DNA of 36,015 nt from Elusimicrobiota bacterium (lineage in GTDB: Bacteria; Elusimicrobiota; Elusimicrobia; UBA1565; UBA9628): the NCBI GenBank assembly GCA_026388095.1, contig JAPLKL010000041.1, forward strand, positions 1-36,015, in the 5' to 3' direction. Under the pieces are notes generated by a model that searched no databases, was not told where the DNA came from, and saw only the letters and a program-made list of their open reading frames with translations. Both the position numbers and the translations under genes were made by a program. This document shows, piece by piece, positions 141 through 19,886 of this stretch. The stretch's first letter is position 1; the number at the start of each line of letters is the position of its first letter.

Positions 141-3100
141 TCAGCGGCCGCGCTGGAGCTGGTCGAGCCAGCGCAGCTTGGGGTCGGAGATGGGCTTGTC
201 CTGCAGGACCGAGGACTGGCGCAGCTGGTCCTCCTCGATGAGCTGCTGCTTGCGGTCGAGGTTCTCGTTGATGACCTGGTTGTAGCGCTCCACCAGGTTG
301 TTCTTGGCCACCCAGTCCACGCCCCCGGTGTCGCCTGACTTGCGCGCCTCGTCCAGCCGCCAGGTCATGAAGTCGTGGATGAGGTCCAGGCTCACGGGCT
401 TGCTGCTCTTGGCCGCGAATTCGATGACCTGCGGGTCGCTCTTGAGCGTCTCGAATCGGGTGCGCTCCATCTGCTTGACGTAGGAATCGATGAGGGCCCA
501 GTCCACCTCGACCGAATGGCCGAGCTTGACGGACTGCGCCTGGGCGAACTCGTGCACGGACGGGTCGTTGCGCAGGTTCACGAACACGTCGTTGTTGCGG
601 TACATATCCTCGAAAGTCGCGTCCTTCTGCAGGGTCTTGATGTCCATCATGAGGCGGAAGTTGCGCTGCGCGCCCAGCAGCACGCGGCCCACGTCGATGC
701 GCCCCTCGGCCTGCAGCAGATGCACCGCGCTCATCTTGTTCGGGTCCATGACCAGCATCTCGTAGTTGGTGTAGCCCTTGAAGGCGTCGAGGCGCGGGTC
801 GCCCTTGTCGCCCTTGTAGTCCAGGTCCAGGCCGCGGCCGCCCACGCGGGTGTCGAGCAGCAGGACCTTCACCTTGCCCGACTTCATGCCCGAGAGGTTC
901 ATCTGCTCGGCCACGTTGGCCTGCGGACGGTTGAGGCGCAGGTACTCCGCGTCCGAGAACACCTGCGCGATCTCGCTCTCCGAGGCCAAGCCGGACTTGA
1001 TCAGGTACTTGCGCACGGTCTTCAGGGCCCGCGTGTCGGGCAGGCTGATGACCACCAAAGCCGTGGAGCCCTGCGGCCGGCTCACCCCGGCCAGGTAGTC
1101 GCGCACGCCGATGTCGGAGATGCTCCTGATGTCGATCACCGATTCCTTCTGGCCGGAAAGGCCCTGGCTCTCCAGGAAGGCCTTGACCGGCTCCGGCGCC
1201 CGGGCCAGGACATCGGGCGTCTTGATGGAGACGAAGCGGCCGCCCTCCATGGTCACGCCCTGGCGGCCGCGCAGCATCGCGAAGTAGTCATAGACCGGGC
1301 CGTCGGGCAGCTTCTCCAGGTCTATGACCATGGCGTCCTTCTTGGCCAGGCCCTGGGCCTCCAGGTAGGTGCGCACCTCGGGCGGCGCGTTGGCCTCCGG
1401 GGCCAGGACCTCGCCGGGGCGCACGGCCACCAGCTGGCGCGAGCGCTGCTGGCCCTTGAGCATGGCCTCGGCCACGCCCGTGTACTTGCCGCCCTCGCCC
1501 TCGCGCACGTCCACGCTCTGGTTGGCCGGCTTCTTGGCGCCCGAGCCGCCGATGGAGATGCCGCTCTCGCCCAGATGCTTGATGTACTTCTCGCCGGCCG
1601 TAGCCGAGAGGGCGAACATGCGCGTCTTCTTGTTGGAGGTCACGTCCTTGATGGTGGAGAGGGCCTTGTGCGTGTAGGGCAAGGTGATGTCGGTGCCGTA
1701 TTCGAGCTCCCAGAACCGGCGCGTGGGGTTGTCCATGGTCTCGAACCACTGCCCGTTGTGGATGACGTTGGTCTTGTGGGTCAGGTTGTCCATGCGCACC
1801 GTGGCGATGTCGTCGTAATAGCCGCGCACCAGGTTCATGAATTCCTCGCGCACCCAGCTCCCTTTGGGCTGGATGGACAGCTTCGGCTTCCATGGCGGCC
1901 AGACGGACCACTCGACTTGGTACTGCTTGTTGGGGAACAGGTACGAGGTCAGCGCGTCGGCGAAGAGCTTGTCGCGCTGGCCCGCGGGCATCAGCGGGTC
2001 GGCCAGGATCTCCTTCATCATCTGCTTGGAGTAGTCCCGGGTCAGGCCGGTGATGCGCTCGTCGTAGAGCTTGATGGCCCGGTCCTGGGTCATCTGCATG
2101 CTGCGCAGCTGCACGTCCACCCCGGTCTTGAGCGCCGCCTCGCGCGCCTCGGCGCCCTGGAACACGGACTCCAGGCGCTCTACGAAGGAGGTCTCCAGGC
2201 CCGGCTGCGCCGCGCGCAGGGCCTTGAGGAAGCGCTCGCGCTCCGTGGCGTGCAGCCCGGCCATGTCCATGGCCTCGCCCAGGCTCTTGAGCGTGGCCTC
2301 CCGGTCGCCGGGCGGGAGGCTGGAGAGCTCCTGCCACTTCTCGGACTGGGTGCGCAGGATGGCCTCGGCCTGCTGGCGCAGCTTCAGGGCGGCCTCGGAC
2401 TCGCCGGGCTTGGCCAGGCCCTCGACCGACTTCAGGCCCGCGCTGAGCTCCTCGGCGCCGCCGGTCATGAGGGCCTTGGACTTCTCCACGGCCTTCTTGG
2501 CCACCTCCCCCTCATCGCGCTCCCAGATGGGGCTGCGCGCCACGGCGAAGGCGTCGGCCTTCATCTTCTTGTAGATCCCGTAGAGCGGGTTCTCGGCGCC
2601 CGCGTAGGCGTCCAGGAGGGCCTTGCGGCCCTGCAGCAGGCGCAGGGCCGCGGCCTGGCTCTCGGCGTCGCCCTTGTTGATGAGGTCCAGGATCTGCTTG
2701 GAGTTGTCGCTGAAGCGCGCCTCGGCGACCCTGAGGTCCGCGGCGGTGATCCGCGTCTGGGCCGTCTCGCGCGAGCGGGCCAGCACGGCCTGCACGCCGT
2801 CGGCCTCCGCCTGGAGCGTGCCCAGCTCCTTCTGGAACGGCTCGATGGGCCGGCCGGCCTTGGTGGCGTCGAGGATCTGGTCGTCCACGGCCGCCATGCG
2901 GCGGCCCACCTCGTAGAGCTTGGAGACGTCGGCCTGGTAGGCGTCCAGGACGGCGTTCTGCTCGGGGCTGAAGGACTGGCGCAGGGCGGCGAGGTCGGTC
3001 TGCGCGCCGGAGAGCCGGGCGTCGCCGCGACGCTGGCCCAGGCCCGCGTTGATGCCTTGCGTCTCGGCCTTCAGGGCCTGCAGCTCCGTGGTCAGGGAAC

Positions 3101-6100
3101 CCGGGACCGCGCCGGACTTGGCCGTCTCGCCCATGCGTTCCGTCAACGCCGTCATGCGCTGGCCCAGCTCGAAGAGCTTGGCCACCTCGGGGGCGGCCCC
3201 GGAGCCGCCCTTGCGCAGGCTCGCGAACTCCTTCTCGCTCTGCAAAGACCGGGAGACCTTGCCGCTGACCAGGTCGATCTGGCCCTGCACCCCCTCGAGG
3301 CTCTGGCGCAGGGAGGCCGAGGTCTCCGGGTTGGCCTCCGCCGCCATGCGTTGGCGCAGGTCCGCGGCCCGCTCCAGGAGCGTGCCGAGTTCGGTGACCC
3401 GCTTGACGTAGCCGTCCAAGGTCTTGGGCGCGCCTGCGGCCTGCTCGGACTTGGCCTGCTGGGACGGGAACTGCTCCTGCAGCTCGAAGACCTTCTCGAC
3501 CAGGCGCTGGGCATGGCCGAACTGGTCGCCCGCGAAGCGCTGGGCCAGAGCCACCTCGCCCTGGGCCAGGCGCATCTCCGACTGCAGGGCCCCCTTCTGG
3601 GCCAGCAGGTCGCCCTTCTCGCCCGTGGTCTTGGCCAGCCGCTCGTCTAAGCCCGCGATCTGGCGCTTGAGGGTCTCGATGCGCGCTTCGGCCTTCTCGC
3701 GCAGGCCCGTGGCCTCCAGGCGCAGGCTCTCCACGCGCGCCTGCGCGTCGCCGCCCACCAGAGGCAGGAGGTTCTCCTGCCGGGTCAGGTTGTCGGACAC
3801 CTCCTGGTTCATGGCCTTGCGCGCGACCGCGTCCATCACGACGCCTTGGTCGAGCAAAGAGGAGATCTTGGCCGCGGCCGCCTGCACCGAGCCCTTGGTG
3901 GCGTCGGGGATGCGCGCGGTGGAGTGCAGGACGTTCTGCTGCGCCTCCACGGCCTCCTTGAGCAAAGCTCCGAGGTCGGCGTCCTGCGGGGGGTTGGCCA
4001 AAGTATTGAGGAGCTCGCCCGTGGAGCGGCGCAGGACCTTGGCCTGCTCGCTGGCCGCCAAGTCCTTGGAGCCGAGCAGCTTCTGCTGCTCGACGAGCAG
4101 CTCGCGCACCACGGCCAGGTTCTCGGGCGTGGCCTGGGCGCGGGCCGCGTCCACCGCGGTCTGGACCTCCTGGCTCTTGGCGAAGAGGCGCGAGAGCGCC
4201 TCGGGGAAGGTCGCCAGGCCCGGCGCGGACATGGCCGCGTTGAGCGCGGAGAGGTGCGTGCGGATGGCCTCCTCGGCCTTGATGCGCCCCGCCGGGCTGT
4301 CCGCGCTGGAGAGCTGCTCGGCGGCCTTGAGCAGCTTCTCCGTGGCCGCGCGCGCGGCCCGGGACTCGGGGGTGCGCACGTCCAGGCCGTCGATGACGGA
4401 CTGGGCCTGGCGGGCCTGGACCTTGACCTTCTCGGAGAGCTCGGCCGCGTCGCGCTGCAGGAGCTGCTCCATGCGGGTGTTGAGCTCCTCCATGCGGGTG
4501 TAGACCGAGTTCTTGCGCGTGATCTTGCCCGTGGTCTCGCCCAAGGTCAGGGCCGGCTGCAGGGCCGCGCCGTCCATCTCGTCGCCCAGGATCCAGACCT
4601 TCTCCACGTAGGTGCCGCCCTTGTTCTTGGCCTCCGCGATCTTGGACTTGAGGCCCTCATAGGTGTCGAACTCGAGCTTGGAGCCCACCTTGCGCAAGGA
4701 GCGCCATTCCAATTGGGCCTGGGCGTCGAGGTTGGACTGCACCGTGAAGAAGCCCACCTCCATGTTGTGCATGCGCGCGTCGGCCTCGGCGATGGGCATG
4801 AGCCCCTCGAAGGCGAGCAAAGTCTTGCCCCCGCCCGTGGTCAGGCGCATGAAGCCGCGCACCGGGGCCCCGCCCTTGCCCATCTCCACGACCTTGGTCA
4901 GGGACTCGAAGTAGGTGACGAACTGCCCGGGCCGCCAGCCGCTCAGGGCCGTGTTCTTGGAGTCGTGCAGGATGTAGGGGGCGCCCTTCATGTCGCTGTT
5001 GACCGCGGTGCGCAGGGCCGCGGCGTCCTCGGGCGAGATGGCGCGGCTGCTCAGGGCCTCCTTGATGCCCGTGTTGAACTCGCCCAGCATGGTCTTGAAG
5101 GGAGCGGCGTCGGCCACCGTGGTCTTGCGCGCGGCGTCGGGGACCGCGTCGCGCCACTTGGCCAGCTTGCCGCCGAAGGTGTCGAGCAGCTTCTGGACCC
5201 CGGGGCTGCCCTCGTACTGCACGCGCAGAGCGGAGAGCTCCTCGTTGACGAGCGCGTGGGTGGTCTCCACGTTGTTGAAGCTCTGGAAGCGCCCCTCCTG
5301 GGCCTCGATGAGCTTGAACATGCTGGAGAGCGCGTCGAACTGCTCCTGGGTCAGGGCGCCGGCCTTGAACTTGGCCTCGACTTTCTGGCTGAGGTCCCGC
5401 GTGACGTCCATGTAGGACTTCTTGGTGACCTGGAGCTCCACGTCCTGGCCCCACTGGGAGACGTTGTCCTTGAGCTCCTTGATGAAGCCGCCCAGAGCCT
5501 CGGCCTGGGCCTTGGTCTCGTGGACGTTGGCCGCGCTGGTCTTGAGGAGCCTCTCGGCGGGGCCGCCGGCCTTGCCCAGGCTGTTGGAATCGAGGTAGCG
5601 CTGGATGTAGCCCTGCGCCAGGCCCTGGATCTTGGGAGAGACCGCGATGCCGGCCGGGAGCTCCTCGAGCATCATGGCCGCGACCTCGCGCTGCACGCCG
5701 GGGTTGACCCGGCCGAAGCCCTCCACGTTGCTGCCGGGCTTGGCGCCGAGGATCTGCTCGGCCAAGGTCGGGTTCTTGACCAAGGCCAGCACGCACTGCT
5801 TGCGCGCCTCGATGCGCACGTCGTCCGTGTTGAAGAGCTCGCCGATCATCTTGCGCTCGGCGGGGTCGGAGCGCGAGATCTTGAGGAAGGCCTCCGGGTT
5901 GATGGTCCCGAGGTCGGCCTCGGCGTTGCCGCCCGAGACGAACTTCTTGAGCTCGCGGGCGATGGCGCGGCGCTTGATGTCCTTGGTGACCAGGAAGTTC
6001 GCGTCGGCATCCTTGGAGCCGTGGTAGGTGAAGTTGAAGACGCGCTGCATCAAGGGCGGCTTGTTCTTGCCCAGCATGGGCAGGTAGCTCAGGTCCGCCT

Positions 6101-9059
6101 CCGCGTTGGCCAGCTGGGCGTCCTTGCCCGCCTTTATGTACTCGTCCTCGCCCTGCGCGCTGCGCTGGAAGGACTGGGCCGCCACCTCGTACTTGGCCGG
6201 GTAGGTCGGGATGAGCAGCCAGAGCGGCGACTCGGACCAGGCCGCGCCTGTCTTCTCGGAGCGCTTGATGCGCCGCTCCAGGCCCGCCATGACTTCCAGC
6301 GGCATGTCCTGGAGCTGGGCCAGCTCGTCCTGCGAGGCCCCGGGGCGCACCACGTCCGCCTCGTTGAAGTTCGCGTACCAGCTGACCTTCTTGGCCGCCC
6401 AGCCCACGCCTTCGCTGAAGACCATGTACTTGGCCAGGCTGTCGGCCGTGCCCCAGGCGAACTGCATGACCTTGCCCACGCCGGAGGCCAGCGCGGAGCC
6501 GCCGAACTTGGCCCCGATGCCCTGGATCACGGAGCTGTAGGCGCCGCCGATGTGCTCGGTCACGTTGGCGACCAAGGAGGAGCGCTCCGCGGCTTGGCCG
6601 ACCACCCACTTGGCGCCCTGTTGGAGCGAGCCGATGGCGCCTCTCTCGCCGAGGGTCTGGGTGATGCCCGCCAGGGAGCCGCCCTCGAAGTAGCTGGAAG
6701 GCAGTCCGATGTAGCCCAGCATGGGATGGAAGGAGTCGTTGGCCCAGTACACGCCGCCGGAGAAGCCCTGCGCGAAGGCGTCGGCGGGGTTGCTGAAGTT
6801 CGAGTCGCCCTCGCCGAACTTGACGATGCCGAGATTGAGCTTGAAGGGAGCCCGGCCCGTGAGGTCTCCCAAGGCCGTCATCGCGCCGGAGAGGGTCCCG
6901 GACATCAAGGAGAAAACCACTTGGCGGCCGGCGAAGCTGATGCTCCGGTTGGTGCTTTGGACCAGATACTCCCTCAGGGCCTGCATCCCGCCGCCTTTCA
7001 TGTTCCCCGGCTTCATGGTCTCCCGCGAGGCCTCCAAGGAGGCCAGGCGCAGGCGGGCCTGCTCGGCCACGGCGGCGATGAGCTTGAGGTCGAGCTTGAG
7101 GGCCACATTCTCGACGATGGCCAGGCCCTTGCGCAGGAGCGGAGCGCCCAAGCCGATGGTCACGGACCAGGTGATCAGGCTGCCGGCCGTGTCGACCCAG
7201 CGGTTGATGGCGGCGATCTTGGTGATGTTGTCGCGGGTGGCCTTGAGCGCGGCGGCGAGCCTCGCCGCGTCGTTGACCTTGGGGGTCTCGCCGTTCAAGG
7301 ACATGGTGGGGTGCTCGTAGACCGCGTCGGGGTTGAGCTTGATGATGGCGGCGCGCGCGTCCCAGTACTTGCCGTTGGATATCATCCCCGCGATCTTCTG
7401 ATACTCGGGCAGGGCGTGGTTGACGTCCGCGCTGCTCTTGCCGTAGCTGGTCCCGCCCGCCACGGTGGCCGCGGCCTTGTGCCAGAAGCCCCAGGACCAC
7501 CGGGATGACCAATTCCACGGCTTGATCGAGCCGTTGAAGTCGATCGGATTGATCGAGCCGTTCAACTGGGGAGCCCAGCTGCCGGACTGCTGCTGCAGGG
7601 CCAAAGTCATGCCCGGCGCGGCCGTGAAGAGCTCGTAGTTGGACCCGATCTCGCCGATCTCCTTCTGGCTGGAGTTCAGCGCCGCCTGAGCGAGGTCGAG
7701 GTTGGAGGCGTAGTCGGTCTTGCAGAGCACGTCCTCGACGCGGCCCAGCACGGCCAGGAGGCGCTCCAGGCGCGCCCGGAGCTTGTCGCCTTCGCCCTTG
7801 TAGCGGCCCTTGGCGGCCGCGTCCAGGGGCATGGTCTCCAGGCCAGCCTCCACCATCTTCGAGTCCGGGGAGGCGGGGTCGAGGCGCTCGAGCTGGCTGC
7901 GCACCGCGTATTTCTGGGCCTCCAGGAAGGCCAGCGAAAGGTAGCGCATCACGAACTGCTCGCCCATCTCCATGGATTTGACCTGCGAGTCCGTGATCGA
8001 GGTGGCGTCCTTGAACTTGCCCATCTCGCCCTGGAAGTAGGCGATGCCCTCGCCCGCCTTCTTGAGATAGCCGTCGCGCACCCGGGTCTTGGCCTCGGCG
8101 ATGTCCCAGAGGGAGTAGGTCTTGCCCTTGTGGCTGTAGGTCTTGGCCTTGGCCTTCTGGATCAGCTCGGCCTCGAAGGCGGCGTTGACCTTGCCCGGGT
8201 CGTTGCGGTCGAAGAAGACCTGGTCCTTCTTCTGCTCTCCCAGGAGCTCGGCCATGAGGACCATGCGGTCCAGGCGCGTGGCGAGGTCGAGCTGGTCGGC
8301 CTGCAGCTTGAGGCGCCAGTAGCTGACCCCGAACATCTCGTAGTTGTAGCGGCCGGTCTCGGGGACGAAAGCGGCCTGCTGGGGCCGGGTCTTGTTGATC
8401 TCGCGCTGCATCTTCTGCAGCTCCCGGTTGTAGATGGTGACCTTGTTCTTGTTGAGCACGAAGGCCACGCCGTCCTTATCCCGGAACGCCCAGCCCTGCT
8501 CGGGGCCGAGGTCCACCTGGGTGTACTCGACCTTGGGGGCGCCCACGACCGCGGCCCCGGTCATCATGGCCTCGCGCAGAGTGCCCAGCGCGAAGGTGTC
8601 CTCCGCGGACCCGCCCGGGACCGCCGGGAGGTCGCCGAACTTCTCGTTGTAGCGCTGCAGGGCCGTCTGGAAGGCCTTCTGGTAGGCGTCCTCCTTTTCC
8701 TTGTATGTCCCGTTCTTGGTCAGGGCTTTGAACGAGTCCTGCATGCCCTGCACTTCCTCGTCCGCGGCCGAATCCGGCCGGCTCTTGAGGTATTTGTAGA
8801 GGACCGCGCCGAAAGGGGTGATGAAGCCGTCCGTGCCCACGAAGTCGCGCAGCTTCTGATTGTCGCCGTCGAAGGCGTGGCGCTTCTCGAGGTAGTCGAG
8901 GACTTGCTTGGGAGTGACGCTGACCTTGGTGGGGCCGGCGGGCGGCGGGTCGGCGGCGCGCAGCAGGGGGGCCCAGCCGGGCGGCGGGGTCAGCAGGCAG
9001 AGGCAGAGCCCGACGGCGAGGCTCCTGCGCGGCAGGTCCCGGAGACTCATGGCGTCCAT
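141..9059 (-). CDS. giant exported protein with a split SecA-like SF2 ATPase core
   Basis: A 2972-aa protein. Residues 1-36 look like a signal peptide (basic start, Leu-rich core, Ala-x-Ala end). Residues about 40-1350 are mostly helical and not recognised, with a few hydrophobic stretches near 640-780. The ATPase motifs are clear: Walker A TTGGGKT (Lys about 1412), Walker B GDEMD (Asp about 1493), motif III LSATAG (about 2484-2489), motif V VGGRGLDLD (Arg about 2742) and motif VI LLQAEGRID (Arg about 2787). The order and the wording around Walker A (GGGKT, then NLDAQAQLEW) and motif V resemble SecA more than ordinary helicases. About 1000 residues, largely Glu/Gln/Ala-rich coiled coil, separate Walker B from motif III; SecA has a much shorter insert there. 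Family resemblance is read from motifs only. Start: ATG at 9059 or ATG at 9050. The latter fits the TACACT -10 box immediately upstream, and neither has a Shine-Dalgarno. Role unknown; a motor for an envelope apparatus is an inference, and an ATPase behind a signal peptide is odd because the periplasm lacks ATP. Confidence 0.85.
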   Translation of the reverse strand: MDAMSLRDLPRRSLAVGLCLCLLTPPPGWAPLLRAADPPPAGPTKVSVTPKQVLDYLEKRHAFDGDNQKLRDFVGTDGFITPFGAVLYKYLKSRPDSAADEEVQGMQDSFKALTKNGTYKEKEDAYQKAFQTALQRYNEKFGDLPAVPGGSAEDTFALGTLREAMMTGAAVVGAPKVEYTQVDLGPEQGWAFRDKDGVAFVLNKNKVTIYNRELQKMQREINKTRPQQAAFVPETGRYNYEMFGVSYWRLKLQADQLDLATRLDRMVLMAELLGEQKKDQVFFDRNDPGKVNAAFEAELIQKAKAKTYSHKGKTYSLWDIAEAKTRVRDGYLKKAGEGIAYFQGEMGKFKDATSITDSQVKSMEMGEQFVMRYLSLAFLEAQKYAVRSQLERLDPASPDSKMVEAGLETMPLDAAAKGRYKGEGDKLRARLERLLAVLGRVEDVLCKTDYASNLDLAQAALNSSQKEIGEIGSNYELFTAAPGMTLALQQQSGSWAPQLNGSINPIDFNGSIKPWNWSSRWSWGFWHKAAATVAGGTSYGKSSADVNHALPEYQKIAGMISNGKYWDARAAIIKLNPDAVYEHPTMSLNGETPKVNDAARLAAALKATRDNITKIAAINRWVDTAGSLITWSVTIGLGAPLLRKGLAIVENVALKLDLKLIAAVAEQARLRLASLEASRETMKPGNMKGGGMQALREYLVQSTNRSISFAGRQVVFSLMSGTLSGAMTALGDLTGRAPFKLNLGIVKFGEGDSNFSNPADAFAQGFSGGVYWANDSFHPMLGYIGLPSSYFEGGSLAGITQTLGERGAIGSLQQGAKWVVGQAAERSSLVANVTEHIGGAYSSVIQGIGAKFGGSALASGVGKVMQFAWGTADSLAKYMVFSEGVGWAAKKVSWYANFNEADVVRPGASQDELAQLQDMPLEVMAGLERRIKRSEKTGAAWSESPLWLLIPTYPAKYEVAAQSFQRSAQGEDEYIKAGKDAQLANAEADLSYLPMLGKNKPPLMQRVFNFTYHGSKDADANFLVTKDIKRRAIARELKKFVSGGNAEADLGTINPEAFLKISRSDPAERKMIGELFNTDDVRIEARKQCVLALVKNPTLAEQILGAKPGSNVEGFGRVNPGVQREVAAMMLEELPAGIAVSPKIQGLAQGYIQRYLDSNSLGKAGGPAERLLKTSAANVHETKAQAEALGGFIKELKDNVSQWGQDVELQVTKKSYMDVTRDLSQKVEAKFKAGALTQEQFDALSSMFKLIEAQEGRFQSFNNVETTHALVNEELSALRVQYEGSPGVQKLLDTFGGKLAKWRDAVPDAARKTTVADAAPFKTMLGEFNTGIKEALSSRAISPEDAAALRTAVNSDMKGAPYILHDSKNTALSGWRPGQFVTYFESLTKVVEMGKGGAPVRGFMRLTTGGGKTLLAFEGLMPIAEADARMHNMEVGFFTVQSNLDAQAQLEWRSLRKVGSKLEFDTYEGLKSKIAEAKNKGGTYVEKVWILGDEMDGAALQPALTLGETTGKITRKNSVYTRMEELNTRMEQLLQRDAAELSEKVKVQARQAQSVIDGLDVRTPESRAARAATEKLLKAAEQLSSADSPAGRIKAEEAIRTHLSALNAAMSAPGLATFPEALSRLFAKSQEVQTAVDAARAQATPENLAVVRELLVEQQKLLGSKDLAASEQAKVLRRSTGELLNTLANPPQDADLGALLKEAVEAQQNVLHSTARIPDATKGSVQAAAAKISSLLDQGVVMDAVARKAMNQEVSDNLTRQENLLPLVGGDAQARVESLRLEATGLREKAEARIETLKRQIAGLDERLAKTTGEKGDLLAQKGALQSEMRLAQGEVALAQRFAGDQFGHAQRLVEKVFELQEQFPSQQAKSEQAAGAPKTLDGYVKRVTELGTLLERAADLRQRMAAEANPETSASLRQSLEGVQGQIDLVSGKVSRSLQSEKEFASLRKGGSGAAPEVAKLFELGQRMTALTERMGETAKSGAVPGSLTTELQALKAETQGINAGLGQRRGDARLSGAQTDLAALRQSFSPEQNAVLDAYQADVSKLYEVGRRMAAVDDQILDATKAGRPIEPFQKELGTLQAEADGVQAVLARSRETAQTRITAADLRVAEARFSDNSKQILDLINKGDAESQAAALRLLQGRKALLDAYAGAENPLYGIYKKMKADAFAVARSPIWERDEGEVAKKAVEKSKALMTGGAEELSAGLKSVEGLAKPGESEAALKLRQQAEAILRTQSEKWQELSSLPPGDREATLKSLGEAMDMAGLHATERERFLKALRAAQPGLETSFVERLESVFQGAEAREAALKTGVDVQLRSMQMTQDRAIKLYDERITGLTRDYSKQMMKEILADPLMPAGQRDKLFADALTSYLFPNKQYQVEWSVWPPWKPKLSIQPKGSWVREEFMNLVRGYYDDIATVRMDNLTHKTNVIHNGQWFETMDNPTRRFWELEYGTDITLPYTHKALSTIKDVTSNKKTRMFALSATAGEKYIKHLGESGISIGGSGAKKPANQSVDVREGEGGKYTGVAEAMLKGQQRSRQLVAVRPGEVLAPEANAPPEVRTYLEAQGLAKKDAMVIDLEKLPDGPVYDYFAMLRGRQGVTMEGGRFVSIKTPDVLARAPEPVKAFLESQGLSGQKESVIDIRSISDIGVRDYLAGVSRPQGSTALVVISLPDTRALKTVRKYLIKSGLASESEIAQVFSDAEYLRLNRPQANVAEQMNLSGMKSGKVKVLLLDTRVGGRGLDLDYKGDKGDPRLDAFKGYTNYEMLVMDPNKMSAVHLLQAEGRIDVGRVLLGAQRNFRLMMDIKTLQKDATFEDMYRNNDVFVNLRNDPSVHEFAQAQSVKLGHSVEVDWALIDSYVKQMERTRFETLKSDPQVIEFAAKSSKPVSLDLIHDFMTWRLDEARKSGDTGGVDWVAKNNLVERYNQVINENLDRKQQLIEEDQLRQSSVLQDKPISDPKLRWLDQLQRGR

Positions 9060-9068
9060 AGTGTAGCA
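9060..9068 (-). promoter_or_regulatory. possible extended -10 promoter of the giant gene
   Basis: The minus strand reads TGC-TACACT, directly before the first ATG. TACACT is the same -10 hexamer used by the two type A promoters at 15358 and 16709. No good -35 is visible 16-18 bases upstream. If real, transcription would start about 3 bases before the second ATG (9050), giving an essentially leaderless mRNA. Confidence 0.4.
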
Positions 9069-9151
9069 GTGGGAAGTCCCATTCCGCCAGGGACCCGAGG
9101 GCCCATAGCCCTTGGGGGATTAAGGCCCAGATGGCCTGGGCCGAAGGGCCC

Positions 9152-9186
9152 AAAAAAAAGGGGCGGCCCAGCGTCAGGGCCGCCCC
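9152..9186 (-). terminator. intrinsic terminator of the 1121-aa protein gene
   Basis: On the minus strand a perfect 10-bp GC stem (GGGGCGGCCC / GGGCCGCCCC) with a 7-base loop is followed by eight T residues. It starts 13 bases past the stop codon at 9200. This is a textbook rho-independent terminator and implies that the giant gene downstream has its own promoter. A second small inverted repeat (GGCCCAG/CTGGGCC, 9124-9142) lies between it and the giant gene. Confidence 0.93.
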
Positions 9187-9199
9187 GTGCGCGCCGACC

Positions 9200-12100
9200 T
9201 CAGAGCTTGTCGTCCTTGCAGGCCTTCAAGGCCGCCGGCTCATCCATGCCCCACCAGACGACCGGGCCCAGGCAGTTGTCAGCGGATTTCGTCTCATTCT
9301 CCGGGGTCCCGCCCTTCCGCTTGACGGCGTACCAAAGGCCTTTCTCCGCTTTGCCGGCGTAGCGGAACTGGCCGTCCGGGATACCTTGGTTCTTGAGCCC
9401 CCGCAGTCCGACCTTTTCGATCGGGACCGCCGGGATGGGCATGTGCAGCTTGGGGTCGCTTGCGAAAGCCAAGCCGGGGCGGCCGTTGCGCCGGACCTCC
9501 ACCGTCTTGCCCTTGTCGTCGAGGATGGCGAAGCGGTAGGCGAGATACCACCGGCTGTTGTCGCCGTTGGCGTAGAGCCGGGCCGTGTCGTCGCCCGCCT
9601 TGGCGATGACGACCACGCTCTCCGCGGGGTTGACGTCCTTCTCCTCGAGGATGCTGGCCTGGTCCTGGAACGGCACGTCCGGGACCAGAGCGAAGTCGAA
9701 GGCATGGCCCGGGCCCGCGGTGTCCGCGTGGCCGGCCGCGGAGTTGAGGTTGTCCGCGATCTTCGGCCAGAACTGGCCGAAGAGCCGGTTGCCGCCGAGG
9801 TGGATGTCGATGGTCCCCGAGTCCATGCCGCCCTGGATGGTGTAGATCTCCGTCCCCTCCCTGAGCTTCATCACGGCGTCGAGGTTCTTCTGGACGTCCT
9901 GGGCGGTCTTGCCCTTCAAGGGGAACTTGCTCAGGTCCAAGGTGGACTTGAACAGCGCCGCGTCCGAGATGTTGAACGAGGACTTGCTGATCTTGCCGAC
10001 GTTCTCGAAGGGATGGTTCTTGGCCTTGTCATCCTCGATCACCACCTTCGCGGGTCTCGCCAGGTCATAGAAAAGGGTCTCCCACGACCGCGTGATGGCG
10101 ACGACGTGGCCGTCGATGAGGTGGAGCTCGTCGGCCGTCTCGCTGAGCGGCAGCTCCGCCGACATCGGCATGGGCATGTTGCGCGCCGAGGAGAGCTCCG
10201 CAGGGAAGATCCAGACATGCCAGTAGCCCAGCGGGGGCTTGCCGGCCAGCTTAAAGGTCCAGATCTCGATCTCCTTATCCTTGAGATCCTGGTTCAAGTC
10301 CTTGCTGATAGGGTCGATCTCGTAGTTGCCCCCCCGCAAGGTGGCCTTGACGGTCTCTAAGAGGGTCCCCGGCTTGGGGCCGGTGCCGCCGGTCTGTCCG
10401 CCCGTCGCCGTGGTGGTGGAGGTGGCGGCCCCGGGGGCGGGGTCCTGGTCGCCTGGCCCATCCTTGACCTCCCAATAGCCGTTGTCCCTGTTGAACTCCA
10501 GATGGTACGGCTTGCCGTCGGCGGCAGTGCCCAGATCCCGGCCCACCTTGTACGGGATGCTCTGGTTGCCTCCGTCCGGACCGCGCTGGTTGACCTCAGC
10601 CGCCATCTCGGGAGACAGGTTCCCGCCCGAAGCCAGGCTGTCCTTGAGGTCGCTCGGGAAGAAGAGCAGCGAGCCCTTGGCCCCGCCCTGCCCCAGCACA
10701 TAGTAGGACTTGTCTCCGACCTTGGTGACGTTGCCCTCGTCGATGGCCTGCTGGGCGCGCAGCGTGAAGAGCTGCGACACCGAGGTCTGCATCTGTTTGG
10801 CATTGTCCTCGCGGCCGAAGGTGATCAACGTGTCGCCGCCGCTGGGGGTGAACTCCAGCGTGTACTTCGGCTTGCCCGCCACACGGTCGTCCAGGGCGAA
10901 GGTCGTCTTGTTGGCCCCGGCCGAGATGGAGAACTTCTGGCCGAAGGTGTCCGCCGAGTTGGTGATGTCGAAGACGCCGATCTTGTTGACCAGAGCCCCG
11001 TTCTCCTTGACCGTGTACATCTTGATGGAGATGGCGCGGGAGACCTTGTCGCCGTCCTGGTAGACGAATTCAGCGACCTTGGCGCCGCTGCGGAAGAGGC
11101 TGTTGTAGTCGAAGCCCTTGGCCGAGCCCGTGATGGGCTGGCCGCCCCCCGCGCCGGGCCCGGTCGTGGGCACGGCGATGCCCTCGGCCCGGGATTGGAT
11201 CTGGTGGGCGATCTCGCCCAGCTCCTTGAGGACCGTGGGGTTGTTGAGGATGGCGGAGCTGATCTGGACCGCGCTGGCGGCATAGGACGCCTTGCCCTTC
11301 TCGGTGCCCAGGAAGCTCTGCACCCAGATCGCCGCGTCGGTCTGGGTGCACTGGCCCACGCCATTGGCGTCGGGCGGAGTCCGGGTCCAGGGCTTCATGC
11401 TCTCGATGAACTTCGCCGTGCGCTCGGCATTCTGGTTCGTCAACGCGCCGGCCAAAGCGGTGTCGCCGGCCAGCCAGGACGGGGCCTGGTCGCCCGCGCC
11501 CATCACGAAGTAGAGCTGGGCGACGGCTACGGCCTCGTCCTGCTTGACTTTCGCCGCCACCCAGGCGGCGGGCAGCTTCTTGATCCGCTCCACGACCTCC
11601 GGATGCTTGTCCCTCAGGTCCTTGGCGATGAACCCCTGGGCGTTGCCGTCGACGATGTAATCGGCGATGCGGGCGGCCATGGACTCGCCCACCTCTTTGG
11701 GGCTCTTGATGAGCTTGCGCGTGAGGATGGTGACGGGATTGGTCTCGCTGCCGCCGGACTTCTCGTCCGGCTGGCCGGCTCCGTCGGACCGTGCGGTCTG
11801 GTTGGCGAGCTGCGTCGGGGGTTTTGGGGCGGCAGCGGCCGTGTCCTCGTCCAAGGCGGCCTGGAGCCGGCTCTTCTGGCCTTTGGCGCTCGTGGTCAGG
11901 GCGGCATGGATGCCCTTGGCATCGAGCGACTTGCCCGGGTGGGCCTTGCTGTAGCTCGCGACGGCCTCGTTCATGGCCGCGTAGACCTTCCGCGTCGCGG
12001 CCTCGCCCCCTTCCTTTATCTTCTTGTATTCGCCGGGGTTCTTGTCCTTGATCATCTGCATGACCGAGACGTAAAGGGTGGCCGGGAGCCCCGGGGGCCG

Positions 12101-12565
12101 ATTCTCGGTGACCGCGGCCGGAGCCTTCAAGTCCAGAGCCAACGGTTTGGACCCGCTCCGGTCCGCCAAGAGAGCGAGGGAATGGTTGAACACGATGACG
12201 TAGTTCAACACGTAGGGTTCGTTATCCACTCTTTCCGTCGTCTTGAACCTGTAGAGCTCGACGTTGTCCAGCGCCTTCGCGGCGCCCACCGCGTCATAGA
12301 GCTCGCAGGATTTGTTCTCGGCGAGAGCGACGACCTTGGATTTGGGGACGTAGTAGGTCTTGCCGTCGGACTTGCTGGTCACCTGCATCCAAGCGGGATT
12401 GCCGGGGACCTCGACGGGCGTCACGGTCTGCTGGGTCGAGGTGGCGGGGTCCCAATAGTAAGGCTTGCCGTTGACCATCATGCTGGCCTGGGAGAGGCTC
12501 GGCAGGAGCGCGGGGGCTGCGAGGGCCAATACGGCAAAAATGACCATGCGGGATTTGGGGTTCAT
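9200..12565 (-). CDS. large secreted protein of unknown function
   Basis: A 1121-aa protein with a clear signal peptide (MNPKSR, hydrophobic Val/Leu/Ala core, cleavage likely after SLSQA near residue 28). The mature part starts with a Tyr/Trp-rich segment (VNGKPYYWDP, then GKTYYVPKSK). It continues as mixed alpha/beta sequence and has a Pro/Thr/Gly linker near residues 705-735 (ATSTTTATGGQTGGTGP) that divides it into two large parts. No TM helix follows the signal peptide and there are few cysteines. I recognise no family. The ATG at 12565 is supported by GGAG about 6 bases upstream. The intrinsic terminator at 9152-9186 closes the unit, and the 861-aa envelope protein gene lies 115 bp upstream on the same strand, possibly co-transcribed. 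A periplasmic or surface partner of the neighbouring envelope proteins is an inference. Confidence 0.85.
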   Translation of the reverse strand: MNPKSRMVIFAVLALAAPALLPSLSQASMMVNGKPYYWDPATSTQQTVTPVEVPGNPAWMQVTSKSDGKTYYVPKSKVVALAENKSCELYDAVGAAKALDNVELYRFKTTERVDNEPYVLNYVIVFNHSLALLADRSGSKPLALDLKAPAAVTENRPPGLPATLYVSVMQMIKDKNPGEYKKIKEGGEAATRKVYAAMNEAVASYSKAHPGKSLDAKGIHAALTTSAKGQKSRLQAALDEDTAAAAPKPPTQLANQTARSDGAGQPDEKSGGSETNPVTILTRKLIKSPKEVGESMAARIADYIVDGNAQGFIAKDLRDKHPEVVERIKKLPAAWVAAKVKQDEAVAVAQLYFVMGAGDQAPSWLAGDTALAGALTNQNAERTAKFIESMKPWTRTPPDANGVGQCTQTDAAIWVQSFLGTEKGKASYAASAVQISSAILNNPTVLKELGEIAHQIQSRAEGIAVPTTGPGAGGGQPITGSAKGFDYNSLFRSGAKVAEFVYQDGDKVSRAISIKMYTVKENGALVNKIGVFDITNSADTFGQKFSISAGANKTTFALDDRVAGKPKYTLEFTPSGGDTLITFGREDNAKQMQTSVSQLFTLRAQQAIDEGNVTKVGDKSYYVLGQGGAKGSLLFFPSDLKDSLASGGNLSPEMAAEVNQRGPDGGNQSIPYKVGRDLGTAADGKPYHLEFNRDNGYWEVKDGPGDQDPAPGAATSTTTATGGQTGGTGPKPGTLLETVKATLRGGNYEIDPISKDLNQDLKDKEIEIWTFKLAGKPPLGYWHVWIFPAELSSARNMPMPMSAELPLSETADELHLIDGHVVAITRSWETLFYDLARPAKVVIEDDKAKNHPFENVGKISKSSFNISDAALFKSTLDLSKFPLKGKTAQDVQKNLDAVMKLREGTEIYTIQGGMDSGTIDIHLGGNRLFGQFWPKIADNLNSAAGHADTAGPGHAFDFALVPDVPFQDQASILEEKDVNPAESVVVIAKAGDDTARLYANGDNSRWYLAYRFAILDDKGKTVEVRRNGRPGLAFASDPKLHMPIPAVPIEKVGLRGLKNQGIPDGQFRYAGKAEKGLWYAVKRKGGTPENETKSADNCLGPVVWWGMDEPAALKACKDDKL

Positions 12566-12680: not shown

Positions 12681-15266
12681 TCATTTGACCTTCGCGGTCG
12701 CCCCTCCTGGCACGCAGGCGTCGCTGGTGCTGCTTCCACCGCACAGGCTCTCAGTCCCGAGCCTCTGCAGGTCGGCAGTGGTCTTTTGGGATACTGCGCC
12801 ATCATAGCCCGCCGTGGCAAGGTCACGCTCGCCGTTGACGGCGGTCGCAATCTCCCCGAGTTTGGCCTTCAGGTCGGCCACCGGAGGCGTCGCCGGGATC
12901 TCCTCCAATTTGGAGGCCACATTCTCTTGCAACTTGACGAGACCGACGTTCTTATCGCCCGCCAGACCTTCGTTGCTCAGGCCTCGGCCGTAGTTCACGT
13001 ACCCTTGCAAGGTCTGGGACAGCGCCACCTCATTGCTCTTGGCAGGTTCGCCCCCGCCCTTTTTCAAGGCATCCATCTGCAGGTTGGCGGTCTTCTGCAA
13101 GCCTCCGGCGGCTTTGGAATCCTTCGGCGTGCAGTCCGGGTTGCCGCAGGCCTGCTGGAGGGCGTCAGTGATCCCTCCCTCAGCGGACTTGATGTATTTT
13201 TCAAAACAGCCCTTCGCGTCCGTGCCGCAGCCTTCCAGCTTCTTGCCGGATGCGGGCACCCCTGACAGCGCGCCCCGAGCCTCCTTGGTATCGCCCTTGG
13301 CCTTGTTCAATGCCGCGATGACCTTGTCGATCTGGTCCTGCGTCTTCTGGACCTCCGGGATCCCCGCCGCGAACTGTTTCTGGGCCTGCTTCTGGGCCTC
13401 GGTGACCTTCCCGTCGTTATCCGCGCAGCCGGCGCACAGCTCGGGGTCCTTCCAACCTGCGACCGCGGGCTTGATGGTATTAGTCAGCAGGGTGTTGGCT
13501 TCAGCGACCGTCGTAGGCTGGGGCGGAGTGGTGCCATCGAGCTTGTTGGTCACATCCTCCTTGACCTTGTTGGTCTCGCCGGTCTTGAGCGCCTCGATGT
13601 TCTTCTGGAGCAGGTTGTCGGCATCGGTGAGCTTGAGGTACCCCGCCTTCACGTAATCCTGATTGCTCTTCGTCAGCCTGCCTGCGATGTTGCCCTCCGG
13701 CACGAAATTCTCCACCGTCGCTTGGCCGCATTGCACGCTCTTGACGTTGCCGGACATCGCGTTGTTCGCGGCCATGACCGCGGCATAGGCCCGCGCCACC
13801 GGCTGGCTGACCGCTTTGTAGGTCTCGTCCTGCGCGGCGGCCATGTCGTTGCAGAGCTTGTCGTAGTTCCCCGTCATGCCGCCGGGGACCGAGGTCCTCG
13901 GCTTGGTGGGATCGGTGCCGGGGACGTTGGCATTGTTCGGCGCGACCTCCGCTTTCGGCTTGGCATCCGACGCGTCTCCTTTCTGCTTCGAGCAGGAATA
14001 GCCGCCTTGAGGGATAGGCGGACTATAAGCGTCGAAACAGATATACAAAGTGCCTTGGCTGAATTGGCAGCACGCACCGGTGACATCCTTGCCGCAGGTC
14101 TTGGTGGAGCTTGGGAAGTTCTTGCCGCCGTCGCACTGGTAATAGGAGGTGCCAGGAGCATCAGAGCCGATCTGCTTGACCGCGTCGGCGATGCCGGCGG
14201 TGAGCGCCTTGAAGGGCGTCATCACGGCCTCCTCGAGCATCTTCTGCTTGAGGTCGGGCCAGAGCATGGCTTCCTTCTCCTTGAGCTTCCAGTAGAGGTC
14301 TATGGCCTTCTGCTGGTTCTCCTTGGCGGCCAAGAACGCCAAGGACTCGCCCAAAGACTTGGAGTCCTTGTTCCCGTTGCCGCTGCCCCCCTTGTCGTCC
14401 TTGCCCGACCCGCCCTCGCCTATGCCGCCGCCGGAGCCTGTCGGCATGTTCATCCCGGCGGCCTGCTCGGCGGCGTTGACGGCCGAGCCCTGCCGGTTGA
14501 GGGCGTTGCCCGCGTTGTCCGCGGCCTTCTTCAATGCGGCCAAGGAGCTCGCGCTGCCGCCCGTCGGACTGTGGGCCCCCACTCCCGCGTAGCCCGGCAT
14601 CTTGCTCACGTAACCCAAAGAATTGCTCTGGGCGGCCGTGTTGGGCGCATGCGCGTTGATCGGCGGCGGCGCCCAGCTGGCGCCTCCACCCCCGCCCGAG
14701 CCCGCGCTCAGGCCGCGCAGGCCCGCGTTGGTCAAAGCGGGCTTGGGCACGGGCAGGCTGGCGGCCTTGGTCGCCGCCGACGCGCCCTTGGACGCCGCGT
14801 TGGCGATGGCGTCCTTCCAGTCCGTGTTCTCCTTGGCCGCAGGCGCCGCCGCCGTGGCGGTCGCCGCGGGCTGCTGAGCGGCTCCGGGGCCCATGACCAA
14901 GGCGGAAGGGTCGCGCACGTTGAGGGGCGTGATCACGTCGCCGCCGCTGCCGGCGAAGCTGCCGGGGGCCATGCCGTTGACTCCGGGCTCGAAGGGGGAA
15001 CTCCCGTCCCCGAAGCGGCCGCCCTTGTTCATGAAGTCCCAGCCCGGCTTGAAGGTGCCGTCGCCCGCGTTCTCCGGGCTCATCATGAAATGCTCGGCCA
15101 AAGGCGCCATGAACAGCACGCCCAGACCCGCCAGGATGAAGGCCAGGTCCTTCTTCTTGAACTGCTTGATGCGTTCCACGAGGGAAAGCCTCGCGGCGAG
15201 TCCCTTGATCCGGACCTGGGGTTTCTGGGAATCCTTGAGGGTGGGGATCTTCGGTTTCTGGTCCAT
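12681..15266 (-). CDS. single-anchor envelope protein, Gly/Ala-rich, with cysteine-rich domain
   Basis: An 861-aa protein. Residues 1-43 are basic and cytoplasmic and carry an IPTLK motif near residue 7, like the IPxLK motif of the paralogs at 18226, 27263 and 32819. One TM helix follows at about 43-60 (LAFILAGLGVLFMAPLAE). Residues about 60-300 are Gly/Ala/Ser/Pro-rich. Around residues 370-420 there is a cysteine-rich module (YYQCDGGKNF, TCGKDVTGACCQF, GYSCSK) that would be disulfide-bonded outside the cytoplasm. The C-terminal 400 residues are helical, with a LCAGCADNDG CxxC-type motif and another Cys-containing segment. There is no C-terminal TM cluster, unlike the paralogs. The start is backed by AGGAGAACC before the ATG, almost the same ribosome site as the gene at 32819. 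It is transcribed from the type A promoter at 15358. Function unknown. Confidence 0.85.
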   Translation of the reverse strand: MDQKPKIPTLKDSQKPQVRIKGLAARLSLVERIKQFKKKDLAFILAGLGVLFMAPLAEHFMMSPENAGDGTFKPGWDFMNKGGRFGDGSSPFEPGVNGMAPGSFAGSGGDVITPLNVRDPSALVMGPGAAQQPAATATAAAPAAKENTDWKDAIANAASKGASAATKAASLPVPKPALTNAGLRGLSAGSGGGGGASWAPPPINAHAPNTAAQSNSLGYVSKMPGYAGVGAHSPTGGSASSLAALKKAADNAGNALNRQGSAVNAAEQAAGMNMPTGSGGGIGEGGSGKDDKGGSGNGNKDSKSLGESLAFLAAKENQQKAIDLYWKLKEKEAMLWPDLKQKMLEEAVMTPFKALTAGIADAVKQIGSDAPGTSYYQCDGGKNFPSSTKTCGKDVTGACCQFSQGTLYICFDAYSPPIPQGGYSCSKQKGDASDAKPKAEVAPNNANVPGTDPTKPRTSVPGGMTGNYDKLCNDMAAAQDETYKAVSQPVARAYAAVMAANNAMSGNVKSVQCGQATVENFVPEGNIAGRLTKSNQDYVKAGYLKLTDADNLLQKNIEALKTGETNKVKEDVTNKLDGTTPPQPTTVAEANTLLTNTIKPAVAGWKDPELCAGCADNDGKVTEAQKQAQKQFAAGIPEVQKTQDQIDKVIAALNKAKGDTKEARGALSGVPASGKKLEGCGTDAKGCFEKYIKSAEGGITDALQQACGNPDCTPKDSKAAGGLQKTANLQMDALKKGGGEPAKSNEVALSQTLQGYVNYGRGLSNEGLAGDKNVGLVKLQENVASKLEEIPATPPVADLKAKLGEIATAVNGERDLATAGYDGAVSQKTTADLQRLGTESLCGGSSTSDACVPGGATAKVK

Positions 15267-15357
15267 AAAGGTTCTCCTAGGCCTGCCTTCTACATATCAA
15301 GAAAGACCCGCGAAAACGATTCTAAGATGCGCGACTCCACTCGACGGAATCGAGGAT

Positions 15358-15386
15358 AGTGTAATATGGCCCCTAGAGATTGTCAA
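15358..15386 (-). promoter_or_regulatory. type A promoter (copy 1)
   Basis: Minus strand: -35 TTGACA (15381-15386), 17-bp spacer, -10 TACACT (15358-15363). The spacer ends GGGGCCATAT and the -10 is followed by ATC. The 24 bases upstream of the -35 (A-run, TGCTTG, then TATTGACA) match the promoter at 16709. It drives the 861-aa protein after a leader of about 85 nt. The leader contains a possible CGATTC/GAATCG stem. Confidence 0.88.
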
Positions 15387-15459
15387 TAGTGCCAAGCACT
15401 TTTTACCGAATTTAAACCAAGCCCGAGGGAAAAGCGGAATAGGGCTTAAAAAGGGCCCC

Positions 15460-16686
15460 TCAGAACAGCCCTGTGAAGAAGGAGCGCGAGGGGGCGGGCG
15501 GCAGTAGCGAATCGCAGTCCGTCAGCGTGCAGCCCTCCGAGGCGGTCAACGGGCAGGCCTCGATGTGCGCGCACTGCGCCGCATTGTAGAGCCTGCAGGA
15601 GGCCGTCACCTCGGCGGCCTTCTCGTCGCAGCGGCGGCGGCTCTCCCGGGAGCCCCAACTCGGCGGGCAGCCCAAAGCCCGGAACTGCTCGATGCGCGCC
15701 TGGAGCGCCAGGGAGAGCTCCTTCTCCCGCGCCGAATAATCCGCGTCGGCCCGCCGGCAGGTCTGCAGGTCCTTCAGGACCTGGTCCGCCTCATCCGGGG
15801 CGCCGGCGCCCCGGGCCTCGGCCGGCGAGAGCTGGGACGTCCCGTCCACTTGGGGGGTGCTCAGGGATGAAGGACTGGCGGCCTTGACTTGGTTGCCGTC
15901 GTAGACCGCGCCCAGGTTGGCGGCCGCGAATTCGGTGGTGCAGCCGGTGGCAGCGGTGCAGTCCGGGGCGCGGGAGCCGCTCGCCCGGTCGCGAGCCTGG
16001 ACCAGGTCCGTGACGGACTTGGCGCGGCTGTCGAGCAGGCTGCGGTCCATGCTCGCGCGCATTTCCACGGAGAGCGCCTTGCCCTTGGCCTTGGGCAGCC
16101 GGCCGGGGCTCACGCCCCGGACCCCTCCCGCGCCCGCCGCCGGGACGTCGGAGCCGTCGAGAGCGCCGCGCAGGTCCTCGCCCGCGCGCCCCTCCGCCCC
16201 CTGGCTGCCGGCGAAGAAGCCGCGGCCGGCATAAGCCGTGGGCTGGCCCAGGTCCGCGCTGGCCGCGCGCTGGCCCTCCAGGTCCTCGTCGCTGAGCGCC
16301 ACGCCCCGGCCCGCGCGCCTGGCGTCCTCCGGGGTCAAGATGCCGCGCACGCTCTTGGCCGCTGCGCCGGGGGAGGCGACCAGGCCCAGCTCCGCGGCGT
16401 CGCCCCGGACGAACTCCACCGAGGAAGGGCCGGCCGCGGCCGGCCCGCGGCCGAAGATGGTGGCCCAGGACAGGCCTTGGTCGCGCTTGACCGCGCTGAA
16501 GGAGGCCCGCAGCCGGGACAAGGACCCGGCCGCGCCCGCCGAGCCGGTGAGGAGGTTCGAGCGCGAGACGAACACGAGCGCGAGGGATACCGCGGTGAGG
16601 CAAAGCAGGGCGACCAGGACCCGGCGGCCCCGCAGCCACATCCCCAGGATTCCCCTCTTCTTGTTGCGCTCCAGGAAATCGGACAT
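15460..16686 (-). CDS. single-anchor envelope protein with cysteine-rich C-terminus
   Basis: A 408-aa protein from ATG 16686. Residues 1-20 are basic (DFLERNKKRG, WLRGRR), followed by one TM helix (about 21-38) and a long extracytoplasmic Ala/Gly/Ser region. A segment near residues 235-290 (RSLLDSRAKS, then AAANLGAVYDGN) resembles the SLxxLR...YDGN segment of the window-end paralog. The last 90 residues hold about nine cysteines (TCRRAD, LGCPPSW, RRRCDEK, SCRLYNAAQC, EACPL, EGCTLTDC), so disulfides are expected. The frame is open upstream to 16746, but the promoter at 16709-16737 lies inside that extension, so the ATG at 16686 is the real start (leader about 16 nt). Function unknown. It is transcribed divergently from the gene at 16791. 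Confidence 0.85.
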   Translation of the reverse strand: MSDFLERNKKRGILGMWLRGRRVLVALLCLTAVSLALVFVSRSNLLTGSAGAAGSLSRLRASFSAVKRDQGLSWATIFGRGPAAAGPSSVEFVRGDAAELGLVASPGAAAKSVRGILTPEDARRAGRGVALSDEDLEGQRAASADLGQPTAYAGRGFFAGSQGAEGRAGEDLRGALDGSDVPAAGAGGVRGVSPGRLPKAKGKALSVEMRASMDRSLLDSRAKSVTDLVQARDRASGSRAPDCTAATGCTTEFAAANLGAVYDGNQVKAASPSSLSTPQVDGTSQLSPAEARGAGAPDEADQVLKDLQTCRRADADYSAREKELSLALQARIEQFRALGCPPSWGSRESRRRCDEKAAEVTASCRLYNAAQCAHIEACPLTASEGCTLTDCDSLLPPAPSRSFFTGLF

Positions 16687-16708
16687 GTTCTTTTGCCTGA
16701 TCGATGAT

Positions 16709-16737
16709 AGTGTAATATGACCCACAAAAATTGTCAA
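16709..16737 (-). promoter_or_regulatory. type A promoter (copy 2)
   Basis: Minus strand: -35 TTGACA (16732-16737), 17-bp spacer ending GGGTCATAT, -10 TACACT (16709-16714), then ATCATCGAT. It matches copy 1 at 15358 in both boxes, the spacer length, the CATAT end of the spacer and the upstream A-run/TGCTTG/TATTGACA. It drives the 408-aa protein. Its -35 lies 17 bp from the -35 of the divergent promoter at 16755. Confidence 0.9.
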
Positions 16738-16754
16738 TACCGGCAAGCATTTTT

Positions 16755-16782
16755 TTGAAACACGGCTTTTTCTTGATATAAT
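16755..16782 (+). promoter_or_regulatory. promoter giving a leaderless mRNA
   Basis: -35 TTGAAA (16755-16760), 16-bp spacer, -10 TATAAT (16777-16782), then 8 bases and the ATG at 16791. The expected start of transcription is at or one to two bases before the ATG, so no ribosome binding site would be transcribed. Confidence 0.82.
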
Positions 16783-16790
16783 CGGTCACC

Positions 16791-17663: not shown

Positions 17664-17687
17664 CAGCCCCAGCGGCTGTGTTATACC
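17660..17687 (+). promoter_or_regulatory. promoter overlapping the upstream stop codon
   Basis: -35 TTGACA at 17660-17665 (its TGA is the stop codon of the preceding gene), 16-bp spacer, -10 TATACC at 17682-17687. Transcription would begin near 17694, leaving a leader of about 9 nt that includes GGAAG before the ATG at 17703. Confidence 0.6.
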
Positions 17688-17702
17688 TTGCTGGAAGACC
17701 AA

Positions 17703-18212
17703 ATGCCCGCTTGCGAAAAGTACCTTGACATCGAGGCCTCCCCCCAGCGCATCTGGGACTTCATCTCCGATTTCAGCAACTGGGGAAAGGCGCTCGAAAT
17801 CGGAAGCCCGCTGCGCCCCTCCTTTCCCCTGACCTGCACCTTCCGTCTAGCCGAGGGTTCGGTCCCCGGCGAGAACGCGGTCGTGGTGATGAGCCAGGAC
17901 CCGGACAAGTATGGATTGACTAGGCGCGGCAGCCGGGAGAGGCCCTTGGCTTGGCGCATCCTGGAATGGGTCCCTCTGAGGAGCATCGCCCTCGGGACCC
18001 AGCGGTCTGGATGGATCTTGAACTACACCGCAGCCATGGCTTTCACCATCGAGCCCAAGGGCCAGCTCTCCACGCGGGTCGGGTTCGCGAGCGATGTGGA
18101 GACGCCGGGCAGGCTGCTGCAGCTTTTGTACTCCGAGTCGCGGGTCCAAAGGAACGCCGAGGAGCAGGCCCGCAACGTGCTCGCCCGTCTGAGGGAAGCG
18201 GTCCTGCCCTGA
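17703..18212 (+). CDS. SRPBCC/START-fold protein
   Basis: A 169-aa soluble protein. The start has the usual SRPBCC (polyketide cyclase/dehydrase-like) signature: a first strand (YLDIEASPQRIWDFISDF) followed by a helix with a conserved Trp (SNWGKALEI), then alternating strands and a long C-terminal helix (RNAEEQARNVLARLREAV). The family binds hydrophobic ligands in a helix-grip cavity; some members are polyketide cyclases/aromatases. The ligand is not readable from sequence. A second SRPBCC gene lies at 26664. ATG 17703 is preferred because it follows GGAAG and lies downstream of the -10; the upstream TTG in frame falls too close to the promoter. The gene converges with the envelope paralog at 18226 with a 13-bp gap. 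Confidence 0.8.
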   Translation: MPACEKYLDIEASPQRIWDFISDFSNWGKALEIGSPLRPSFPLTCTFRLAEGSVPGENAVVVMSQDPDKYGLTRRGSRERPLAWRILEWVPLRSIALGTQRSGWILNYTAAMAFTIEPKGQLSTRVGFASDVETPGRLLQLLYSESRVQRNAEEQARNVLARLREAVLP

Positions 18213-18225
18213 GAGCGGCGTCCGC

Positions 18226-19878: not shown

Positions 19879-19886
19879 AGCGCTAG

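Follow-up and report, generated by a model that had tools for sequence, protein, structure and literature searches.

SecA is regarded as the cytosolic motor of protein export. The gene at the beginning of the window (the whole stretch of DNA analysed here, 36,015 nucleotides from the 4.6 Mb genome assembly of a member of the Elusimicrobiota) encodes a giant protein in which SecA-like ATPase motifs lie on a chain that starts with a signal peptide. This poses a genuine and testable puzzle: from where would such a motor get its ATP? Do the widely separated motifs belong to one motor, is that motor akin to SecA, and on which side of the membrane does it work?

The gene and its motor motifs

The open reading frame runs from 9059 to 141 on the minus strand. 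An assembly or frame artefact was considered and dismissed, since no break interrupts the frame, which many assemblies conserve. The protein can be divided as follows.

141-9059, minus strand: whole gene (P0001), giant protein of 2,972 aa, from the ORF call
8955-9059, minus strand: signal peptide, residues 1-35 (MDAMSLRDLPRRSLAVGLCLCLLTPPPGWAPLLRA), with a basic n-region, a hydrophobic stretch at 13-31 and a conserved hydropathy peak, by inspection
7260-8954, minus strand: N-terminal helical domain, predicted to be exported, about residues 36-600, from stand-alone signal-peptide proteins and cysteine sets
7122-7190, minus strand: hydrophobic segment, residues 624-646, which may span the membrane or be a buried helix; its hydropathy peak is strong in the family and as high as that of the signal peptide
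6867-6923, minus strand: weaker Gly-rich hydrophobic segment 713-731, from hydropathy
5010-7112, minus strand: conserved helical middle region, residues 650-1350, from conservation; no PDB fold match at E<=0.001
4470-4982, minus strand: first part of putative RecA1, residues 1360-1530, with Walker A and Walker B, from an 18-member alignment and Pfam ResIII/DEAD matches
2130-4469, minus strand: helical insert where SecA has its PPXD, roughly residues 1531-2310, with low conservation, all-helical in a homologue model, heptads at 1791-2050
450-2102, minus strand: end of putative RecA1 (motif III) and RecA2 (motifs V and VI), from the alignment, a homologue model and a fold search

Motifs I, II, III, V and VI of an SF2 two-RecA ATPase are all present and in order: Walker A (GGGKT, residues 1409-1413, with K1412; DNA 4821-4835), Walker B (DEMD, 1493-1496, with D1493; 4572-4583), motif III (SAT, 2485-2487, with S2485; 1599-1607), motif V (DTRVGGRGLD, 2736-2745; 825-854) and motif VI (QAEGRIDVGR, 2783-2792; 684-713), all on the minus strand. 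A reading made from the sequence alone had placed K1412, D1493 and position 2485 there, with motifs V and VI following normally and some 1350 residues before the core; the residue numbers were verified and a 1,350-residue N-terminal extension was confirmed. The two motor halves were aligned over 18 family members, which are 27-82% identical within those halves. Invariant in this alignment are the G, K and T of Walker A, the D, E and D of Walker B, the S and T of motif III, DTRV.GRGLD in motif V and Q..GR....R in motif VI; the motifs are also conserved in 17 full-length homologues. Because the key residues are invariant over 18 homologues, chance occurrence is ruled out. The same invariance bears on the idea that the RecA pair has lost its ATP turnover and is kept for a structural role: an exported location with no known ATP supply would suit it, but every catalytic motif is kept over 18 divergent sequences, and we consider it very improbable. 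Conservation in the family as a whole is high at residues 36-1590 and 2320-2870 and low between.

Fold, insert and kinship of the motor

The structure model used here is of a homologue, L069, and not of the window protein (AlphaFold2, pLDDT 72.5, pTM 0.45). In it the two halves form the strands and helices of two RecA domains. VIA-align superimposed it on SecA with a Z of 20.7 and 360 residues aligned across both halves, so that the expectation that the halves would fold into one RecA-pair ATPase is borne out as far as the homologue's prediction goes; in the model the two halves make up one RecA pair, one motor. The biochemical class of the giant, a putative SF2-type RecA-pair ATPase, is fairly secure.

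Between Walker B and motif III lie 990 residues (639-1,389 in 16 homologues), as against 182-187 in the housekeeping SecA of the same phylum (30 SecAs), in agreement with the earlier statement that SecA's own insertion at the comparable PPXD place is far shorter. The interruption had also been called largely coiled coil. It is indeed helical, to judge from the L069 model, where the insert is all alpha; coiled coil is indicated in part of it, as heptad periodicity beats shuffled sequences only around 1791-2050 and, weakly, at 2181-2310. Two distant relatives, L041 and L080, have the same two motor halves with little in between, so that the simplest view of the insert is that the PPXD position has expanded.

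The SecA-like fold of the family surfaced only by structure comparison. Single-sequence searches of the giant with Pfam, NCBIfam, and phmmer against the PDB gave no matches, and profile searches of the PDB using either motor half gave chance matches only. With the L069 model, the 17 best PDB matches in Foldseek are all SecA (E 1.9e-5), though DEAD/DEAH helicases come within about 1 Z of SecA in VIA-align. Profile comparison leaves the two undistinguished: the SecA profile reaches 1.4e-5 with the N half of the family and 3e-4 with the C half (a collinear match of 228 columns), while a DEAD-box profile matches them at 1.1e-4 and 1.2e-5; Foldseek ranks SecA ahead. The sequence-only reading, which had the halves SecA-like, therefore stands in that both match SecA and needs amending in that DEAD-box profiles fit equally well.

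The likeness to SecA lies in the RecA pair, in the TGxGKT, DExD, SGT/SAT, GRGxD and QxxGR motifs, and in a large insertion between motifs II and III. Unlike SecA, the giant family has a II-III stretch that is 3.5-7.6 times longer and helical, and the giant has only 185 residues after motif VI with no wing or scaffold, as well as a signal peptide, the long N-terminal extension and nearly no cysteine. Pfam SecA_DEAD, SecA_PP_bind and SecA_SW had no match in the window protein: PPXD (SecA_PP_bind) was not found between motifs II and III, where an insert of another kind takes the same place, and the C-terminal wing, scaffold and two-helix finger (SecA_SW) were not found. From motif V to the C-terminal end there are 237 residues in the giant and 178-199 in its relatives (SecA has a median of 367 after GRGTD). 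Because SecA_DEAD, PPXD and wing/scaffold are absent, the giant is SecA-like rather than a SecA: of the earlier claim, a SecA-like two-RecA ATPase on a chain with an export signal holds, and membership in SecA proper is not supported. It probably works like SecA, and may be descended from it.

Complete SecAs with export signals do exist in the phylum. Five SecA paralogues with N-terminal signal peptides were found in Elusimicrobiota (L110, L111, L112, L113 at 4684-8139, minus strand, and L114 at 5733-9062, plus strand), in genomes that also encode a normal SecA. L113 and L114 are full SecAs by Pfam, with PPXD and wing/scaffold, and start with a signal peptide and an Ala/Pro-rich linker; in L112 SecA is joined to an M50-like domain and TPRs, and in L110 (5,255 aa) to a DnaJ domain. 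Like the giant, these proteins begin with an export signal, and the SecA motor behind it has no cysteine or a single one; unlike it, they match Pfam SecA with PPXD, and L113/L114 the wing/scaffold too. In a crude motif scan of sampled DNA, signal-peptide proteins with a clear P-loop motor turned out, FtsH-like AAA aside, to carry a SecA-like one.

A second SecY was considered as a general partner and rejected, since 12 of 13 genomes have one copy. The host genome has a single SecY; genome G034, which has a signal-peptide SecA, also has a second, divergent SecY (L212, 2230-4518, minus strand).

The signal-peptide SecAs bear on the alternative that the giant is not related to SecA at all and is a DEAD/ResIII-type SF2 translocase of nucleic acids carrying a large insert. 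Among the 18 family members Pfam ResIII matches 16 and DEAD 11, as against one for SecA_DEAD (E 0.017), the C-half profile matches DEAD-box as well as SecA, and the folds are close; but the top of the Foldseek list is held by SecA entries, the collinear SecA match runs through the stretch before motif III, and the giant has a signal peptide in a phylum with bona fide signal-peptide SecAs. On balance that alternative seems unlikely.

The N-terminus and the side of the motor

The signal peptide noticed in the first reading is seen, by inspection, in the giant and in all of its full-length homologues. The N-terminal domain behind it is, judged from its sequence relatives, exported, because it is found alone in signal-peptide proteins (which end before position 624) and because its cysteines in homologues co-occur as sets, 310 with 323 and 206/228/248. 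An N-terminal model had no PDB match at E<=0.001.

The giant could be a type I inner-membrane protein, with residues 36-620 periplasmic after signal cleavage, a span at 624-646 and a cytoplasmic motor that would serve the Tad-linked locus described below by driving a protein or pilus component into the membrane or across it. The hydrophobic segment together with intact ATPase motifs, which need ATP, argues for a motor inside. Family-mean hydropathy at 628-646 is 1.45, equal to the signal peptide level and above the SecA maximum of 1.04; the loop at 647-712 is K/R-rich, with a net charge of +0.075 per residue vs -0.026 after 733; and between signal peptide and motor there is one hydrophobic segment in members L037-L040 of a distant subfamily and there are three in L110. 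Against this, the segment, hydrophobic in most members, is weaker than the true spans of Tad proteins and falls to soluble-protein level in the divergent members L078/L079, and cysteine is depleted after residue 650. This arrangement is credible, and we give it well under an even chance. A first idea, that a single span at 624-646 settles the topology, was weakened by the cysteine data, L078/L079 and L080. Segments 624-646 and 713-731 may also form a transmembrane hairpin.

A motor outside is argued for by the near absence of cysteine and by relatives in which a signal peptide is present but nothing ahead of the motor looks clearly like a membrane segment (L078, L079, L080 and the full-length SecA L114). 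The family has hardly any cysteine beyond residue 650. The Walker half of the motor has no Cys at all over 4,681 residues, and the other half has 0.32 per 1,000; the corresponding figures are 6.65 for SecA motors, 6.21 for DEAD motors and 13.5 for cytosolic proteins sampled from the same genome. Cytosolic and exported control proteins were drawn from about 400 kb of the host genome. A classifier that leaves cysteine out finds the composition of the motor shifted toward exported proteins, though the classifier is too weak (AUC 0.77) to decide the matter. Proteins >600 aa low in cysteine are few in a random genome sample, and most are very large or have signal-like N-termini; the same sample has a histidine kinase-like protein of 646 aa without cysteine, however, and since low-Cys proteins with cytosolic domains thus exist, the cysteine argument is inconclusive. 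ATPase motifs would also be pointless without ATP, and the hydrophobicity of segment 624-646, seen in most members, would imply a cytoplasmic motor. Taken together, we lean slightly toward the whole chain, motor included, lying outside the cytoplasm of the producing cell. The same genome has further large, nearly Cys-free ORFs at L182:9741-12770 and 12770-19999 and in L191 around 4336-9534, two of them with signal-like N-termini.

If outside the producer's cytoplasm, the motor has to find its ATP somewhere else, the simplest source being a cell with which contact is made. Generalised, Elusimicrobiota might export SecA-type ATPases: the giant family and, separately, the full SecA paralogues with signal peptides would translocate proteins beyond the producer's cytoplasm, working inside a contacted cell or fed by an extracytoplasmic source of ATP not yet recognised. 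This we put forward tentatively, as rather doubtful.

The family, its operon and the Tad-linked locus

Giant homologues are present in 41 of 57 relatives, with identities of roughly 30-45% across one order. A C-half profile, run on 199 sampled genomes of the phylum, picks up the family in 15 of them, in the same order and also, as distant relatives of 4,903-6,078 aa, in another family of the class. In this analysis the family was met only in Elusimicrobiota; it has no Pfam or NCBIfam model, and its sequences indicate that it is real and conserved. The giant closes a three-gene operon of envelope proteins (P0003-P0002-giant), which recurs in most relatives whose flanking sequence is long enough.

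9203-12565, minus strand: P0002, exported protein of 1,121 aa, family c1; adjoins the giant in 14 genomes
12684-15266, minus strand: P0003, 861 aa, single N-terminal membrane span, family c2; kept in 13 genomes
15463-16746, minus strand: neighbour family c8, membrane-anchored Cys-rich protein of 428 aa; 6 genomes

Upstream on the same contig are genes for an FtsH-like AAA/M41 protein, TadE-like, TadG-like, TadB and TadC proteins and a TadZ-TadA fusion. The FtsH-like gene of the Tad locus (L046:1480-3183, minus strand) occurs in 48 of 57 relatives, and the fusion of TadZ-like (MinD/ParA) and TadA-like (T2SSE) parts (763 aa; L046:16606-18894, minus strand) in 52 of 57, both class-wide. The giant and the FtsH-like gene lie on one contig in nine genomes, 14-30 kb apart, and in four of the nine (G000, G003, G024 and G031) the TadZ-A gene is there too. 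Downstream of the giant, eight relatives have a further large gene of up to about 4,850 aa.

The reading we prefer, tentatively and at somewhat less than an even chance, is that the giant is an envelope protein peculiar to its lineage, with a SecA-type (SF2) motor as its basis, and that it works as part of a surface apparatus linked to Tad; the motor is slightly likelier to be outside. ATP-driven closure of the RecA pair would move the helical arm against a polypeptide or partner, much like SecA's PPXD clamp; alternatively, the giant would be tethered by 624-646 with its motor inside. Location and job are inferred here, and the Tad link is suggested by gene neighbourhood rather than by function.

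A secreted effector, in which the whole giant is delivered into a contacted cell where the motor uses host or prey ATP, would fit the export signal and Cys-poor motor. Tad pili kill prey by contact in Myxococcus (PMC12075869), and SecA-like helicase domains are listed among Amoebophilus effectors (PMC3482391). The fixed operon and locus, the level of identity across the order and the broad conservation resemble an apparatus part instead, and we think an effector quite unlikely. The Kil (Tad-like) predation system of Myxococcus resembles the giant's locus in being a Tad locus with extra envelope proteins, and differs in that a SecA-like motor goes unmentioned in the abstracts on it (PMC12075869, PMC8460266).

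SecA-like motors, even complete SecAs, are thus found on chains with export signals in a phylum whose giant proteins have been noted with no mechanism attached to them. The giants of Omnitrophota and Elusimicrobia in the 2023 bioRxiv preprint of West-Roberts et al. reportedly have divergent SecA DEAD domains. Going by their description, they are like ours in being large and exported, with a SecA-like motor, near type IV/II secretion genes and in the same broad lineage; ours differs in size (about 3,000 aa vs tens of thousands), in having one or no clear span and in its dedicated operon. Giant proteins are common in Elusimicrobia and Omnitrophota (PMC12057145, citing West-Roberts 2023). SecA domains in giant exported proteins have thus been described previously; a description of the present family was not found in the literature searched. 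Being comparatively small, the giant lends itself to direct measurement of topology and ATPase activity, and it ties such motors to a Tad-pilus locus.

Other genes of the locus and of relatives may be mentioned. A signal-peptide protein with a caspase (Peptidase C14) domain lies inside it (31311-32702 of the window, minus strand), and a relative of this protein is directly downstream of the giant's homologue in L071. A series of 500-660 aa proteins is encoded on the minus strand (18229-19911, 27266-29251, 32822-34594, and from 34613 past the end of the window). Their N-termini are rich in Lys and Gly, and inspection suggests one membrane segment in each; a similar series lies between the FtsH-like gene and the operon in relatives. 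A single transposase-like gene (REP-associated type, by eye; L073:15944-16834, plus strand), with equivalents in 10 genomes, is fixed just before an exported giant of ~4,650 aa with a C-terminal membrane span.
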